This document shows, piece by piece, positions 180 to 7,878 of a DNA stretch of 64,000 nt; position 1 is the stretch's first letter, and every line of letters starts with the position of its first letter. The stretch comes from Haloprofundus halophilus. GTDB taxonomy: Archaea; Halobacteriota; Halobacteria; Halobacteriales; Haloferacaceae. The notes beneath the pieces were generated by a model that made no database searches, was not told the origin of the DNA, and saw only the letters and a list, made by a program, of their open reading frames with translations. Made by a program: the position numbers and the translations under genes. The DNA lies in assembly GCF_003439925.1 (NCBI RefSeq), contig NZ_QQRR01000002.1:620001-684000 (forward strand). Reading direction: 5' to 3'.

Positions 180-1493
180 TTACAGAAGCAGGAGCGCGGC
201 GAGCGCGATGCTCACGACCGCACCCGAAAGCGTCGCCAGAAAGTTCACGGCCTGGTTGCCGACACGGTTCCCCTCGACCGTCGCCCCGAGGAGGCTGTCG
301 ACCGTCATCCCACCGACGCCGCCGAGCGTGACGATGACCGCGCCAACGAGCGGCGGAGCCAACGGTAACGTGAGCGCAGCGACGGCGGCGACGAGGACGG
401 CCCCGAGGAGTCCGGCGAGTTCGCCCTGCCAGGTCACCGCGCCGTCGGTCCCCGGTTCGACCTCTCGGAGCGTGGTGATGAGTCGCGGCGTGTCGAACAG
501 GCCGCCGACTTCGCTCGACAGCGTGTCGCTCATCGCCGTCGCCAGCGACCCGGCGAACGCGAACAGAAACAGCAACTCGACGCCCGCTTGCTCGGTCGCG
601 GCGTAGCCGAGCACGGCCGCCATCGCGACGGCGGCGTTGCCGAGCACGTTCCCGCTTCCGCGCGCGCCGTCGTTCTCCTCGGCGACGCCGCGTCGGCGCT
701 TGGACTCGTACTTGAACTTCGTCGAGAGCGCGCCGACGCCGAAGAACGTGATGAGGACGGCGAACCAGCCGAACCCGCCGAGAACGATAGTGAGGACGCC
801 CAGAAGGATGCCGGTGAGCATCCCCGCGACCGACGCCGTGCCGAGCGCGTACGAGACGTAGCCGAGGACGACAGTCAGCGCGAGCGCGGCGGCGACCTCC
901 AGCGGCGAGACGTCGATAGGGAGTTCGTGGAACAGCCACAGCAGCAGCCCGGTCGAGACGAGCACCAGCGGGTCGTCGTGTTTGAGCAGTACCTCGCGGA
1001 GCAGCGCGGCGACGAACACACCGACGGCCGCCAGAAACGTGAGTTTCGGAACCGTGAGCGCCTCGTTCGTCGCGGACACGACGAGCGCCTGTCCGCCGAC
1101 GGCCGCCAGAAAGCCGGCGACAGTGAAACCCGCGACGGCGTGAAACGCCCCGTCGTTCCAGCGGGAGGCGAGCTGCTCGCCGAGGTTGCCGTAGGCGACG
1201 ACGACGACGGCGGCGACGAACGCGCTGACGGGCAGCCGCGTCTCCGGAACCGTCGCCAGCACCGCCAGCGCCGCCGCGGCGAGCGCGAAACCCAGTAGGC
1301 CGGTCAGCCGGCCGTCCTGTCGGTCGCCCGGGCAGGCGAACAACTCGAAGAGACGGCCGTCCTCGCCGACGAACGCGGCGACGGCGGCGACGACGGCGAA
1401 CGGAACCGCCGCTGCGATGCCGAGAACCGGCGTGGCGAACGCGAGGGACCCGACGGCGGCGAACCCGGCCGCCCGTCGGAGAGTCGAAGTCAC
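180..1493 (-). CDS. DUF92 integral membrane protein (VTE6/TMEM19-type, possible prenyl-phosphate kinase)
   Basis: 437 residues with about ten hydrophobic helices. The family signature is in the second half: GVGALSTKFKYESKRR, then AEENDGARGSGNVLGNA, then a membrane-proximal AMSDTLSSEVGG. DUF92 includes the plant/cyanobacterial phytyl-phosphate kinase VTE6, so a prenyl-phosphate substrate is plausible here but inferred. The GTG at 1493 (VTSTLRR) is chosen because upstream in-frame sequence is non-membrane and antisense to the neighbouring gene. It is divergent from a cis-prenyltransferase homologue across 162 bases, with UppS just beyond, which suggests a role in dolichyl/polyprenyl phosphate metabolism. 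Confidence 0.85.
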   Translation of the reverse strand: MTSTLRRAAGFAAVGSLAFATPVLGIAAAVPFAVVAAVAAFVGEDGRLFELFACPGDRQDGRLTGLLGFALAAAALAVLATVPETRLPVSAFVAAVVVVAYGNLGEQLASRWNDGAFHAVAGFTVAGFLAAVGGQALVVSATNEALTVPKLTFLAAVGVFVAALLREVLLKHDDPLVLVSTGLLLWLFHELPIDVSPLEVAAALALTVVLGYVSYALGTASVAGMLTGILLGVLTIVLGGFGWFAVLITFFGVGALSTKFKYESKRRRGVAEENDGARGSGNVLGNAAVAMAAVLGYAATEQAGVELLFLFAFAGSLATAMSDTLSSEVGGLFDTPRLITTLREVEPGTDGAVTWQGELAGLLGAVLVAAVAALTLPLAPPLVGAVIVTLGGVGGMTVDSLLGATVEGNRVGNQAVNFLATLSGAVVSIALAALLLL

Positions 1494-1623
1494 ACCACTC
1501 GGTATCCCCGATGACCACTTAACCCTCCCGACATCGCGGACTTTGCTCCGTCTCGGCTCGCCGGAGGCGACCGAATCAACTCTCGCGCGTTCGGCTCCCG
1601 GACGGGAGGGACGCCAGAGAGAT

Positions 1624-1634
1624 GGGCTTTTGAG
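1624..1634 (+). promoter_or_regulatory. TATA-like box of the short cis-prenyltransferase gene
   Basis: A T-rich run (GGCTTTTGAGG) in GC-rich DNA about 27 bases before the GTG at 1656 fits a haloarchaeal TATA box for a leaderless transcript and supports that GTG as the start. Confidence 0.45.
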
Positions 1635-1655
1635 GTCCGGCGACGACTCTCGGAC

Positions 1656-2264
1656 GTGGCCCTGTACGACACGTATCTCGCGCTTCGTCACCGCCGTTCG
1701 ACGGCGGAGTCCCCCCGACACGTCGCCGTCGTCATCACCGAGCGCGACCTGTTGGAGAAAGGCGCGTACGAGACGCTCGAACGGTTCCTCGAGTGGGCGT
1801 TCGAGTACGGAGCCGAACGCGTCACCATCTCCGTGAGCGTGCTCGACCCAGCGGTCGTGGCGACGCTCGAACGCGAACTGCGCGGCGTGGACGCCCCCCG
1901 CTCGCTGGTCGTCCGCGGCCCCGACGACACCGAACGCGCCGACGCGCCCATCCAGGTGAGTATCGGCCTCGGCGGCAAACACGAGTTCGCCGAGGCGGTC
2001 CGCTCGCTCGCCCGCGAAGTCGAGGCGGGAGAACTCGACCCCGAGGACATCGACGAGGACGACATCGAGGGCCGTCTCGTCTTCCCCGACGAACCGGACC
2101 TGGTGCTCAAGACGGGCGCCGAACGGCTCTCGGACTTCATGATCTGGCAGTCGGTGTACTCGGAGCTGTACTTCACCGACGTGAACTGGCGGGACTTCCG
2201 CAAGCGCGACTACCTCCGCGCGGTGCTGGATTACCAGGACCGAAAGCGGCGGTTTGGACGCTGA
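1656..2264 (+). CDS. Cis-prenyltransferase-like protein lacking the catalytic Asp (candidate NgBR-like subunit)
   Basis: 202 residues, clearly homologous to the UppS encoded next door: both share a segment of the type AGEL(D/S)PEDID followed by a (K/R)TG...S(D/N)F..W motif. Where UppS has HVAIIQDGNRR, this protein has HVAVVITERDL (residues 22-32), so the catalytic Asp and phosphate-binding Arg residues are gone. It does keep a C-terminal RFG (residues 199-201), the RxG motif of NgBR/Nus1 and of homodimeric bacterial enzymes. Inference: a non-catalytic partner that completes the active site of UppS. It is convergent with uppS (53-base gap) and divergent from DUF92. Family membership is firm; the subunit role is a hypothesis. 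Confidence 0.8.
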   Translation: MALYDTYLALRHRRSTAESPRHVAVVITERDLLEKGAYETLERFLEWAFEYGAERVTISVSVLDPAVVATLERELRGVDAPRSLVVRGPDDTERADAPIQVSIGLGGKHEFAEAVRSLAREVEAGELDPEDIDEDDIEGRLVFPDEPDLVLKTGAERLSDFMIWQSVYSELYFTDVNWRDFRKRDYLRAVLDYQDRKRRFGR

Positions 2265-2317
2265 GAAGCAGCGAAGCGCCCAAACGTCGCCGCGGCAGTG
2301 GTATCTTCTCGACCGTC

Positions 2318-3247
2318 TCAGTCGGCCGGTTCCGTCTCGTGGTTCGCCAGCGCCTCGTCTATCTCGGCGGCACCGGCGCTCGTCAGTTGGTCGCGGAGTC
2401 GTTTGGCGACGGTCTTGGCCTCCGCCAGTTCCACCTCGGCGAGCGACCGCACCAGCGCGACGGCCCGGTTGGTGCGGTGGCGCTGCCACGACGCCTCACG
2501 GGACTCGTACGTCCGGATACCGCGGAGGAAGTCGACCTTCGAGAACTCCGGCCAGTAGGGCGCACAGAAGAACACCGCCGCCTCGTTACCGTTGGCGTGC
2601 CACGGCAGGAAGTTCGAGGTTCGCTCGTCGCCGCCGGTTCGGATGATGAGGTCGACGTCGCGGACGGGCCGGCGGTAGAGGCGGCTCTCGACCGCTTCCA
2701 CGTCGATGTCCTCCGGCGAGAGGTCGCCGGCGTCGACGTCGCGGGCGACGTCGCGGGCGGCCTCCAGCAGTTCGGCCCGGCCGCCGTACGCCAGCGCGAT
2801 GTTCAGCGTGAACCGGTCGTAGCCGCGCGTCCGCCGTTCGGCGTACTCGACGGCGTCCCTCACCCGCTCGGGCAGCCGTTCGATAGCGCCGATGGCGCGG
2901 ATGCACACCTCGTTGTCGTGGACGCGGTCGGCGTCGGCGAACTCGTACAGCTTCGCTTCGATGAGGTCGAACAGCGGTTCGCGCTCCTCGGGCGGCCGCG
3001 CGAAGTTCTCCGTCGAGAACGCGTACAGCGTCAGTTCGGCGATGCCGAGCTCCTGACACCAGTCGAGGACGCGCTCGGTGGTCTCTGCGCCCGCCTGGTG
3101 ACCGTCCGGCGCGTCGTCGCCGTTCCGCCTTGCGTACCGGCGGTTACCGTCCTGGATGATGGCGACGTGCGTGGGTCCCTCGCCGACTTCACCGCGTAGC
3201 AACCGCTCGTATCCCGATGCGAACTCCTGGCGGACCCGCCGAAACAT
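2318..3247 (-). CDS. uppS: Cis-polyprenyl diphosphate synthase (undecaprenyl diphosphate synthase family)
   Basis: 309 residues from the ATG at 3247. It adds isopentenyl units in cis to an allylic diphosphate, making the long polyprenyl lipid that carries glycans in archaeal N-glycosylation. Visible motifs: HVAIIQDGNRR with catalytic Asp33; YAFSTENFAR (75-84); NIALAYGGRAE (149-159); RTGGDERTSNFLPW (203-216); FFCAPYWPEFSKVDF after it. The C-terminal RxG present in E. coli UppS and in NgBR is missing: the equivalent stretch reads SREASWQRHR. Upstream in-frame ATGs exist (MWCERDD and earlier), but family alignment favours MFRRVRQ. Confidence 0.93.
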   Translation of the reverse strand: MFRRVRQEFASGYERLLRGEVGEGPTHVAIIQDGNRRYARRNGDDAPDGHQAGAETTERVLDWCQELGIAELTLYAFSTENFARPPEEREPLFDLIEAKLYEFADADRVHDNEVCIRAIGAIERLPERVRDAVEYAERRTRGYDRFTLNIALAYGGRAELLEAARDVARDVDAGDLSPEDIDVEAVESRLYRRPVRDVDLIIRTGGDERTSNFLPWHANGNEAAVFFCAPYWPEFSKVDFLRGIRTYESREASWQRHRTNRAVALVRSLAEVELAEAKTVAKRLRDQLTSAGAAEIDEALANHETEPAD

Positions 3248-4599: not shown

Positions 4600-4726
4600 T
4601 TTCGGACGAAGATAACTATCGGACGGATAAAACCGTGTCGCCACGTCGGAGTCGCTCCCGTGGTTCGACCGTCGAACGCGTCCCGGCTTCGAGACGCTTA
4701 TTCTTCCTCCGTTCGGAGTGTCGCTC

Positions 4727-5797
4727 ATGAGACAGGCGGACGCGGACGCGACGCTGTCGGAACTCGACCGCGCCATCATCAACGCGTTTCAGGGCGGGTT
4801 TCCGGTCGTCGAACGTCCGTTCGACCCGGCGGCGGCCGCGCTGCGCGAACGCGGCGTCGACGTGACGGCGGACGAACTTCTCGCACGCGTGCAGACGCTC
4901 GACGAGGAGGGCGTCCTCACGCGCTTCGGCGCGCTCGTCAACGCCGAGAACATCGGCGGCGCGGCGACGCTCGTCGCCATGCACGCCCCGCCCGAGCGCT
5001 TCGAGGAAGTCGCGGAGTTGGTGAACGCCCACCGCGAAGTCGCGCACAACTACGAGCGCGAGCATCCGCACCTCAACATGTGGTTCGTCGTCAGCGTGGC
5101 CGATGAGAGCCGCGTCGACGAGGTGCTCGCGGAGATCGAGGCCGAGACGGGCCAGGAGACGTACAACCTGCCGAAGATGAACGAGTTCCGCGTCGAGGCC
5201 AAGTTCATGCTCGACGGGCCGGTTCCCGACGGCGACGTGGACCTCTCACACCTCGGCCCCGACGTGGAACCCTCGGGCAGGCCGACGCTCACGCCGGACG
5301 AGCGCGACCTGGTCGTCGAGATACAGGGTGGGCTCCCGATAACGGCGACGCCGTACGCCGACGTCGCCGACGCGATAGGCGCGGAGACCGAGTGGGTCGT
5401 CGAGACCGTCAAGCGGTTCGACCTGGAGGGGAAGGTCCGCCGCGTCGGCGTCATCCCGAACCACTACGCGCTCGGCTACACCGAGAACGGGATGACCGTC
5501 TGGAACGTCCCCGACGAGGTGGTCGAGACGGTCGGTCCCGCCGTCGCCTCGCTCGACTTCGTCACTCACTGCTACCGTCGCCCCCGCCACGAGGGCGTCT
5601 GGCCGTACAACTTCTTCGCGATGACCCACGGCCGGAGCGAGGAGGAGAGTCAGCGCCGCATCCAGGAGGTCCGCGAGACGATGAGCGAGTACTGGGAGGT
5701 CGGCGACGACGACTGGGACTCGCTGTTCTCGACGCGCATTCTGAAGAAGACCGGAATCAGGCTGGCCGAACGCGCGGAGGCGAACACCAGTGAGTGA
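4727..5797 (+). CDS. ahb: Siroheme decarboxylase, fused AhbA/AhbB-type
   Basis: 356 residues made of two homologous halves, each a winged helix plus Lrp/AsnC-like ferredoxin fold. The first opens LDRAIINAFQGGFPVVERPF, the second ERDLVVEIQGGLPITATPY. In organisms with the alternative heme pathway, AhbA and AhbB together decarboxylate siroheme to didecarboxysiroheme; here both are one chain. The ATG at 4727 fits a TATA-like CGCTTATTC about 27 bases upstream; a GTG at 4718 would add three residues. It leads a cluster with precorrin-2 dehydrogenase and HemA, which strongly supports a heme/siroheme role over transcriptional regulation. Confidence 0.88.
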   Translation: MRQADADATLSELDRAIINAFQGGFPVVERPFDPAAAALRERGVDVTADELLARVQTLDEEGVLTRFGALVNAENIGGAATLVAMHAPPERFEEVAELVNAHREVAHNYEREHPHLNMWFVVSVADESRVDEVLAEIEAETGQETYNLPKMNEFRVEAKFMLDGPVPDGDVDLSHLGPDVEPSGRPTLTPDERDLVVEIQGGLPITATPYADVADAIGAETEWVVETVKRFDLEGKVRRVGVIPNHYALGYTENGMTVWNVPDEVVETVGPAVASLDFVTHCYRRPRHEGVWPYNFFAMTHGRSEEESQRRIQEVRETMSEYWEVGDDDWDSLFSTRILKKTGIRLAERAEANTSE

Positions 5798-5866
5798 GGA
5801 ACTCGCGGAGGTCTTCACTCGGTACGCGGTGTGCCGAGTGGGCTCACGGGAGCGCGGCTACGCGAG

Positions 5867-6532
5867 ATGATTCCGCTGTTTCACGACTTCGCGGACGAGA
5901 CGGTGCTCGTCTTCGGCGGCGGCGCAGTCGGTGCGCGGAAGGCGCGACGCTTCGCCGACGAAGCCCGCGTCGTCGTCGTCAGCCCCGAGTTCGGAGGCGA
6001 CGGCGGCGATGCCGACACCGACGAGTTCGGCGGCGCGGAACTGGTCCGCGCCGCTCCCGCCCCCGACGAGATCGTCGACTGGGTCGATCGGTTCGACCCG
6101 GCGCTCGTCGTCGCGGCGACGAACGACGAGACGGTGAACGAGGCGGTCGAGACGGCGGCGAAGGACGCCGGGGCGCTGGTCAACCGGACCGACCGCGCGG
6201 GAAGCCGCGACGCCCGCAGCGTCGTCGTCCCCGCGACCGTCGACGACGACCCCGTCACCGTCGCCATCTCGACGGGCGGACGGAGTCCGGCGCTCTCGAA
6301 ACACCTCCGCGAGCGAATCGAGGCGGAACTCGACGGTGCGGGTGCGATGGCCGAACTGACCGGAGAGATTCGCGCGGGACTGAAAGCCGAGGGCGTCGAC
6401 CCGACCGAGCGACGCGAGGCGGTTCGAGCGGTCGTCGGCTCGTCTCCCGTTTGGAAGGCTTTACGTACGGGCGAATCCAACGCCCGGAGAGAGGCCCAGC
6501 GCGTGATACGGAACAGAGGTGAGTCCCCGTGA
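5867..6532 (+). CDS. Precorrin-2 dehydrogenase / sirohydrochlorin ferrochelatase-like (CysG-N/Met8 type)
   Basis: 221 residues from ATG 5867 (MIPLFHDFADETVLVFGGG). The N-terminal Rossmann motif VLVFGGGAVGARKARRF binds NAD, followed by VVAATNDETVNEAV and NRTDRAGSRDARSVVVPATV, all typical of the bifunctional CysG N-terminal domain that oxidises precorrin-2 and may insert iron to make siroheme. This supplies the substrate of the upstream decarboxylase. The stop overlaps the start of hemA by one base (TGATG), indicating translational coupling. A GTG at 5831 would extend the N-terminus by 12 residues without adding conserved sequence. Confidence 0.88.
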   Translation: MIPLFHDFADETVLVFGGGAVGARKARRFADEARVVVVSPEFGGDGGDADTDEFGGAELVRAAPAPDEIVDWVDRFDPALVVAATNDETVNEAVETAAKDAGALVNRTDRAGSRDARSVVVPATVDDDPVTVAISTGGRSPALSKHLRERIEAELDGAGAMAELTGEIRAGLKAEGVDPTERREAVRAVVGSSPVWKALRTGESNARREAQRVIRNRGESP

Positions 6533-7878
6533 TGGAAGAAACCGGCGTCATCTCCGGCGTGAGCGTCTCGCACGTCAACGCGACCGTCGACGAGGTCGGA
6601 GCGGCCTGCCACGACGACGTCCGGGCGACCATCTCGGCCCTCCTCGACCGCGACGGCGTCGAAGAGGCGTACGTCCTCCAGACGTGCAACCGCGCGGAGG
6701 CGTACGTCGTCACCGAGCGACCCGCCCTCGGGGCGGCGGCGCTGGCCGACTTCGCCCCCGACGTCCGCGACGGTGCGGTCGTGACGCTCGACCACGAGGA
6801 GAGTCTGCGCCACCTCATGCGCGTCGCCGCCGGACTGGAGTCGCTCGTCCTCGGTGAGGATCAGATTCTCGGCCAACTCCGCCGCGCGGAGTCCGAGGCC
6901 CGCGCCGTCGACGCCGTCGGAACGATGCTCGAAGACGCCCTCCGCAAGGCGATTCACGTCGGCGAGCGCGCGCGCGCAGAGACGAAGATAAACGAGGGCG
7001 TGGTGTCGCTCGGCAGCGCCGCCGTCCGCCTCGCCGAGACCGAGACGGCCGTCGAGGGCTCGACGGCGCTCGTCGTCGGCGCGGGCGAGATGGGCGCGCT
7101 CGCGGCGCGAGCGCTCGATTCGGCGAACGTGGACCGACTGCTCGTCGCCAACCGGACCGTTCCCCACGCCGAACACATCGCGGCCGAAGTCGCCGCCGAC
7201 GCGTCGGCCGTCGCGCTCGACGCCGCCGCCGCCGCCGCGGGCGAAGCCGACGTGGTCGTCACCGCGACCAGCAGCACCGACTACGTCCTCGACGCCGAAG
7301 CGCTCGCCGGGGCGGGCGAGACGGTGCTCATCGACATCGCCCAACCCCGCGACGTCGACCCCGCGGCCGACGAGCTCCCGGACGTGGTCGTCCGCGACAT
7401 CGACGCCCTCGAAACCGTCACCGCCGAGACGCGCGAACGCCGCCGCTCGGAGACCGACGTGGTCGAGGCGATGATCGACGACGAGCTCGCGCGCCTGCTC
7501 GACGCGTACAAACGGAAGCGCGCCGACGACGCGATCAGCGCGATGTACGAGAGCGCCGAAGCGGTCAAACGCCGGGAGTTACAGACCGCGCTGTCGAAGC
7601 TCGACGCGCAGGGCGAGATGACCGACGAACAGCGAGAGACCGTCGAGGCGCTCGCGGACGCGCTCGTCGGCCAGCTGCTCGCCGCGCCGACGAAGTCGCT
7701 GCGCGACGCCGCCGCCGACGACGACTGGACGACCATCCAGACGGCGATGCAGCTGTTCGACCCCTCCTTCGGCGACCGCGACCGCGCGACCCCCGACGCG
7801 CCGGCGTTCGAGGCGAGCGAGGCGTCCGACGAGGAGGACGCACCGCCGCACGTCTTCGAGCAGTGCTCCGACGACTGA
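6532..7878 (+). CDS. hemA: Glutamyl-tRNA reductase
   Basis: 448 residues. It reduces glutamyl-tRNA(Glu) to glutamate-1-semialdehyde, the first committed step of C5-pathway tetrapyrrole synthesis. The catalytic Cys52 lies in LQTCNRAE, followed by GLESLVLGEDQILGQ, the NADPH-binding ALVVGAGEMG, and NRTVPHAEHIAAE. The C-terminal helical dimerisation domain is followed by an acidic tail of about 45 residues (ASDEEDAPPHVF...), common in haloarchaea. The ATG shares its first base with the upstream TGA. It is last in a three-gene tetrapyrrole operon that couples the entry step to siroheme-dependent heme synthesis. Confidence 0.96.
   Translation: MEETGVISGVSVSHVNATVDEVGAACHDDVRATISALLDRDGVEEAYVLQTCNRAEAYVVTERPALGAAALADFAPDVRDGAVVTLDHEESLRHLMRVAAGLESLVLGEDQILGQLRRAESEARAVDAVGTMLEDALRKAIHVGERARAETKINEGVVSLGSAAVRLAETETAVEGSTALVVGAGEMGALAARALDSANVDRLLVANRTVPHAEHIAAEVAADASAVALDAAAAAAGEADVVVTATSSTDYVLDAEALAGAGETVLIDIAQPRDVDPAADELPDVVVRDIDALETVTAETRERRRSETDVVEAMIDDELARLLDAYKRKRADDAISAMYESAEAVKRRELQTALSKLDAQGEMTDEQRETVEALADALVGQLLAAPTKSLRDAAADDDWTTIQTAMQLFDPSFGDRDRATPDAPAFEASEASDEEDAPPHVFEQCSDD

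Follow-up and report, generated by a model that had tools for sequence, protein, structure and literature searches.

The window (a 64,000-nucleotide stretch of Haloprofundus halophilus contig NZ_QQRR01000002.1) carries 2 neighboring genes for proteins related to the cis-prenyltransferase (cPT) UppS, and the question is whether these are an enzyme with an unneeded relative or 2 parts of one enzyme. They are the only PF01255 genes in their genome. An initial annotation, made from the letters alone, nominated the second possibility, and both open reading frames are found where it placed them. The features are collected in Table 1. We favor, with a probability of roughly 0.9, the reading that the 2 genes encode one heteromeric cPT, with an active site that is completed by the tail of the small subunit.

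Table 1. Features around the cPT gene pair (window positions)
Feature	Position	Strand	Basis
DUF92 integral membrane protein (PF01940), sole copy in the genome, proposed isoprenoid kinase	180..1493	-	Pfam; prediction of PMC5898192
Divergent intergenic region between DUF92 and small-subunit genes, 162 bp	1494..1655		ORF coordinates
Putative small cPT subunit (NgBR-like, non-catalytic), 202 aa, GTG start	1656..2264	+	ORF list, Pfam, alignments
Codons of HVAVVITERDLL, small-subunit residues 22-33, replaced catalytic loop	1719..1754	+	Profile-profile alignment
Codons of terminal R-F-G-R (residues 199-202), RxG-x-COOH tail	2250..2261	+	Alignments; tail role in NgBR from PMC7573591
Gap between convergent stop codons, 53 bp	2265..2317		ORF coordinates
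Putative large cPT subunit (DHDDS-like, catalytic), 309 aa, ATG start	2318..3247	-	ORF list, Pfam, alignments, AF2
Codons of HVAIIQDGNRRYA, large-subunit residues 27-39, catalytic Asp loop	3131..3169	-	Translation; conserved 61/61

The large protein keeps the HVAIIQDGNRR motif with D33, together with R84, R203, R209 and S211, and is without RxG; the small protein has ITERDLL in the place of the catalytic loop and the C-terminus RRFGR. Profile-profile alignment of the 2 families (probability 100%, E = 1.7 × 10−46) lays small HVAVVITERDL along large HVAIIQDGNRR, with T28 on D33 and ERDL on GNRR, and puts RFG (199-201) on S253-W254-Q255 of the large protein. The complementary losses that the initial annotation read in this pair are therefore real, down to the residue numbers it cited, and the PEDID and (K/R)TG..F..W segments by which it joined the 2 proteins are indeed common to both. 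In a set of one locus per genus from about 60 haloarchaeal genera, all 61 large proteins have D33-G-N-R-R and none has RxG, and all 45 small proteins are without the catalytic loop and end in R-(F/Y)-G-x, a regularity indicating that the complementary losses are not due to chance. A heteromeric cPT is recognized by a subunit with the Asp loop and arginines but no RxG, a homologous subunit with RxG, and co-occurrence of the 2 genes, all of which are found here; both motifs on one chain, the mark of a homodimeric UppS, are found on neither protein.

The large protein covers the full PF01255 profile (E = 3.4 × 10−68, 229.9 bits against a Pfam cut-off of 27), and its core can be aligned with UppS of E. 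coli over 231 columns of the profile. The columns invariant in its family are D33, R36, R37, E80, N81, R84, R203, R209 and S211, matching DHDDS D34, R37, R38, R85, R205, R211 and S213 (DHDDS residues as given in PMC7573591). After about residue 250, there is a helical C-terminal extension, with AF2 helices at 237-272, 274-285 and 290-304 in a model of pLDDT 88. Foldseek gives human DHDDS as the closest match to this model, over more than 300 columns that include the C-terminal helices, with an rmsd that is high over the whole length, and in phmmer searches DHDDS is the only match for which the alignment reaches into the tail. A helical tail on the catalytic subunit is thus found both in DHDDS and in the haloarchaeal large subunit, but it is variable among methanogen large subunits and mostly absent in Methanomicrobiales, so that a DHDDS-like tetramer is no more than a possibility in the halophiles. 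As a separate observation, a methanogen catalytic subunit (L103) ends in RRFGGQKYK where its relatives have RRYSSQKYK, either a reappeared, partner-independent RxG or a chance resemblance.

The PF01255 match of the small protein is confined to profile columns 109-219 (E = 1.8 × 10−26, 93.5 bits, same cut-off), and alignment finds its family to be without the P-loop and the R84 region. With the entire first half of the Pfam profile gone, one might take the small protein to be a functionless, decaying duplicate, a proposal to which we give next to no credence. The protein has 64% to 96% identity to its counterparts in other haloarchaeal genera (and 95% to that of Haloprofundus marisrubri), 53 columns are invariant in 24 haloarchaeal rows, E29, D31, L32 and L33 of the replaced loop are invariant in those rows as well, the losses are non-random, and the small type is kept phylum-wide. 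The AF2 model of the small subunit has pLDDT 84, with low confidence at residues 161-167 and 199-202. Foldseek with this model has UppS and DHDDS chains on top and no NUS1 chain among the best 50 matches listed, a ranking partly explained by the low-confidence residues and hence not used to choose between families. The small protein as a single sequence did not reach NUS1 by phmmer, whereas the small-family profile matches NUS1 over its full length, and profile-profile comparison agrees, with an hhalign probability of 96.8 and E = 2.4 × 10−10 for NgBR.

PF01255 is present in 291 of the 293 genomes of the order, and 286 have at least 2 cPT genes; among the 7 with fewer than 2 copies, a single genome is more than 90% complete. 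Genomes keeping one gene without the other were to count against the heteromeric reading, and among the order's 255 well-assembled genomes this occurs once, in the one just mentioned, a 120-contig draft having the small gene only. At least 2 cPT genes are present in 150 of the 158 genomes of a phylum sample, and the small-subunit profile matches 33 of 34 phylum representatives; one family of the sample (5 genomes, 75% to 91% complete) had no match to PF01255 or to the large-subunit profile in any of its 5 genomes. A scan of named contigs, which did not extend to Asgard archaea, finds the small type in Methanosarcina, Methanoperedens, Methanothrix, ANME-1, Syntrophoarchaeum, Methanomicrobiales and halophiles. 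Its matches in Thermoplasmata, Methanomassiliicoccaceae and Methanosphaera have DGNRR together with a terminal RxG, with one cPT per genome where checked. The same scan has a contig labelled as a Lachnospiraceae bacterium that encodes a methanogen-type small subunit, probably by binning contamination. Some haloarchaeal genomes (G168, G065 and G040) have an extra catalytic-type cPT distant from the small gene, possibly a second enzyme using the same small subunit.

A joint alignment across the phylum has 314 distinct sequences, 156 large, 149 small and 9 single-copy. D33 and R84 are present in 156/156 of the large type, with an aligned RxG in 0/156. The small type has a terminal RxG in 147/149, KFG in the other 2, and neither R84 nor the DGNRR loop in any (0/149 for each). 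All 9 single-copy archaeal cPTs, from Thermoplasmata, Methanosphaera and one unclassified archaeon, have both motifs, with tails RR(F/Y)GK or similar. The split of the active site is general across the phylum, and near-absolute. An Asp letter does stand at the D33 column in 12 of the 149 small subunits, mainly relatives of ANME-1 and Syntrophoarchaeum, with no GNRR after it, and these mostly read LLVLDE(S/T)DLL. The form LLV(L/M)DE(S/T)DLL is seen at 6 ANME-1/Syntrophoarchaeum loci, and may be an intermediate stage of the loss.

In the window, the small and large genes lie tail to tail, and the small gene has DUF92 on its upstream side, in divergent orientation. Being convergent, the 2 cPT genes cannot share a transcript, which makes an operon impossible. 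Where the pair is linked, it is convergent in 44/44 haloarchaeal cases, in 13/13 from other lineages and in 39/39 named loci, these sets being overlapping. The stop-to-stop gap of the haloarchaeal linked pairs ranges from 8 to 2639 bp, and in some methanogens the ends of the 2 open frames overlap. The small gene is away from the large one in 16 of 60 haloarchaeal loci. Downstream ORFs at window positions 4718-7878 resemble, by their translations, haem biosynthesis genes, namely an AsnC/Lrp-type sirohaem decarboxylase pair fused in one frame, sirohaem synthase and glutamyl-tRNA reductase.

uppS has been described as the only conserved neighbor of DUF92, for which a kinase-like step in isoprenoid synthesis was predicted (PMC5898192). 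The neighbor here is the small gene: DUF92 diverges from it in 41/41 haloarchaeal loci, and in several methanogen lineages it lies near the small gene even with the large gene elsewhere. These positions could be taken to mean that the small protein works with DUF92, as a tether or by feeding it product, its cPT role being secondary. We consider that unlikely as a replacement for the heteromeric enzyme, for it accounts neither for the RxG tail nor for the single-gene versus two-gene pattern, although a DUF92 partnership may hold alongside it. The compact dolichyl-phosphate module, DUF92 included, that the initial annotation had in mind is a prediction from conserved position alone.

A heteromeric cPT is already known in one archaeon, Methanosarcina mazei, where MM_0618 and MM_1083 form an enzyme with C45-50 products (Emi et al. 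2019, as cited in PMC8131916), so the methanogen precedent named in the initial annotation exists. We take genome G432 to be M. mazei, one of its cPTs matching MM_0014 at 199/200 residues. It has exactly 2 further PF01255 genes, one of the large type and one of the small type ending in RRYGK, which by elimination are MM_0618 and MM_1083. The tree groups the large proteins in one clade (100/95) and the small proteins in another (85/83), each M. mazei subunit falling in the clade of the corresponding window protein; by elimination and tree together, the window pair is orthologous to MM_0618/MM_1083. The 2 pairs are alike in type, a catalytic subunit without RxG and a small subunit without the loop. 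They differ in arrangement, the M. mazei genes being far apart (at about 279 kb and 831 kb in G432) and the halophile pair usually tail to tail beside DUF92, and in what is known of them, heteromery being reported for the M. mazei orthologues and predicted for the haloarchaeal pair. Precedent, orthology and co-occurrence thus speak for the heteromeric reading with which the initial annotation began.

The main competitor says that the large protein is an RxG-less homodimer and the small one a regulator or scaffold outside the active site. MM_0014, a PF01255 protein without RxG like the large subunit, is active as a homodimer (PMC8131916), and human DHDDS without its partner, as a homodimer, has low activity (PMC7573591), so the absence of RxG is no proof that a partner is needed; the haloarchaea in which the 2 genes are only loosely linked also speak for this competitor. 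Enzymes of the MM_0014/MA1831 type are homodimers that are not strict about the acceptor; they occur as a third paralogue in some genomes of Methanosarcina and resemble the large subunit only distantly. A small protein outside the active site leaves unexplained why RxG is so strict and why the chain ends right after it (147/149), and both genes co-occur in nearly all genomes, and for the M. mazei orthologues a single heteromeric enzyme is reported (PMC8131916). We consider the homodimer very unlikely.

How the 2 chains of a heteromeric enzyme would be configured is suggested by human cPT. There, NgBR extends its tail, R290-L-G292-K293, across the interface: the phosphate of the IPP site is bound by the backbone nitrogens of L291 and G292, the carboxylate at the end of K293 touches R37 and R85, and an NgBR lengthened by one C-terminal residue gives lower activity (PMC7573591). 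DHDDS and NgBR divide the labor in the same way as the types described here, and the non-catalytic human subunit also ends one residue past RxG. By analogy, the tunnel for the substrate, Asp33 for Mg binding and the arginines that bind pyrophosphate would all belong to the large subunit. The small subunit would have kept the dimerization fold, with these features and the greater part of the tunnel region lost. The R-F-G-R-COOH tail of the small subunit would cross the interface as in NgBR and complete the active site of the large subunit, its backbone reaching the IPP-site phosphate and its terminal carboxylate the catalytic arginines. From a short allylic diphosphate and IPP, such a complex would build a polyprenyl diphosphate of about C50-60, the presumed precursor of the dolichyl phosphate that carries surface sugars in N-glycosylation. 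Homodimeric UppS of E. coli and other bacteria, and the single-copy archaeal cPTs, have the same fold and active-site chemistry, but with the Asp loop and RxG on one chain where the window pair has them on 2. The pair most likely arose from a duplicated homodimeric archaeal cPT followed by complementary loss.

Whether the human split has the same origin is a separate matter. The former catalytic loop has VITE in NgBR as it does in the small subunit of halophiles, and with the full-length profile match this suggests that a common origin is worth testing; many archaeal small subunits are without VITE, and the 202-aa small subunit is unlike NgBR in having no N-terminal membrane anchor and about 19% overall identity. 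For the tree, each residue of human NUS1 and DHDDS was compared with PDB chains, and the E. coli UppS sequence agrees with the stretch in the phmmer output. NUS1, whose branch is very long, comes out basal to the small clade (85/71), and the alternative of NUS1 with DHDDS is not rejected. The tree does not decide between DHDDS with the large clade and NUS1 with DHDDS (AU p 0.44 and 0.47), nor on large plus small as one clade apart from the single-copy cPTs (AU p 0.38), and no date is put on the duplication. That NgBR and the archaeal small subunit come from one non-catalytic ancestor, eukaryotes having inherited the split enzyme from archaea, is a tentative idea that we doubt.

To the M. mazei enzyme, these findings add a phylum-wide reach, broader than the literature we found describes, the contrast between one-gene and two-gene archaea, and the conservation of the tail-to-tail order. 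A single methanogen result becomes a phylum-wide rule, and the presence of 2 UppS-like genes in haloarchaeal genomes is explained, with catalysis possible for just one of them. One-cPT archaea with both active-site halves on one chain, beside two-cPT archaea in which they are split, amount to a natural experiment, by which the origin of split cPTs, including one versus two origins of DHDDS/NgBR, becomes testable on soluble proteins of a halophile that is open to genetics. The orphan DUF92 membrane family is tied more firmly to lipid-carrier synthesis.
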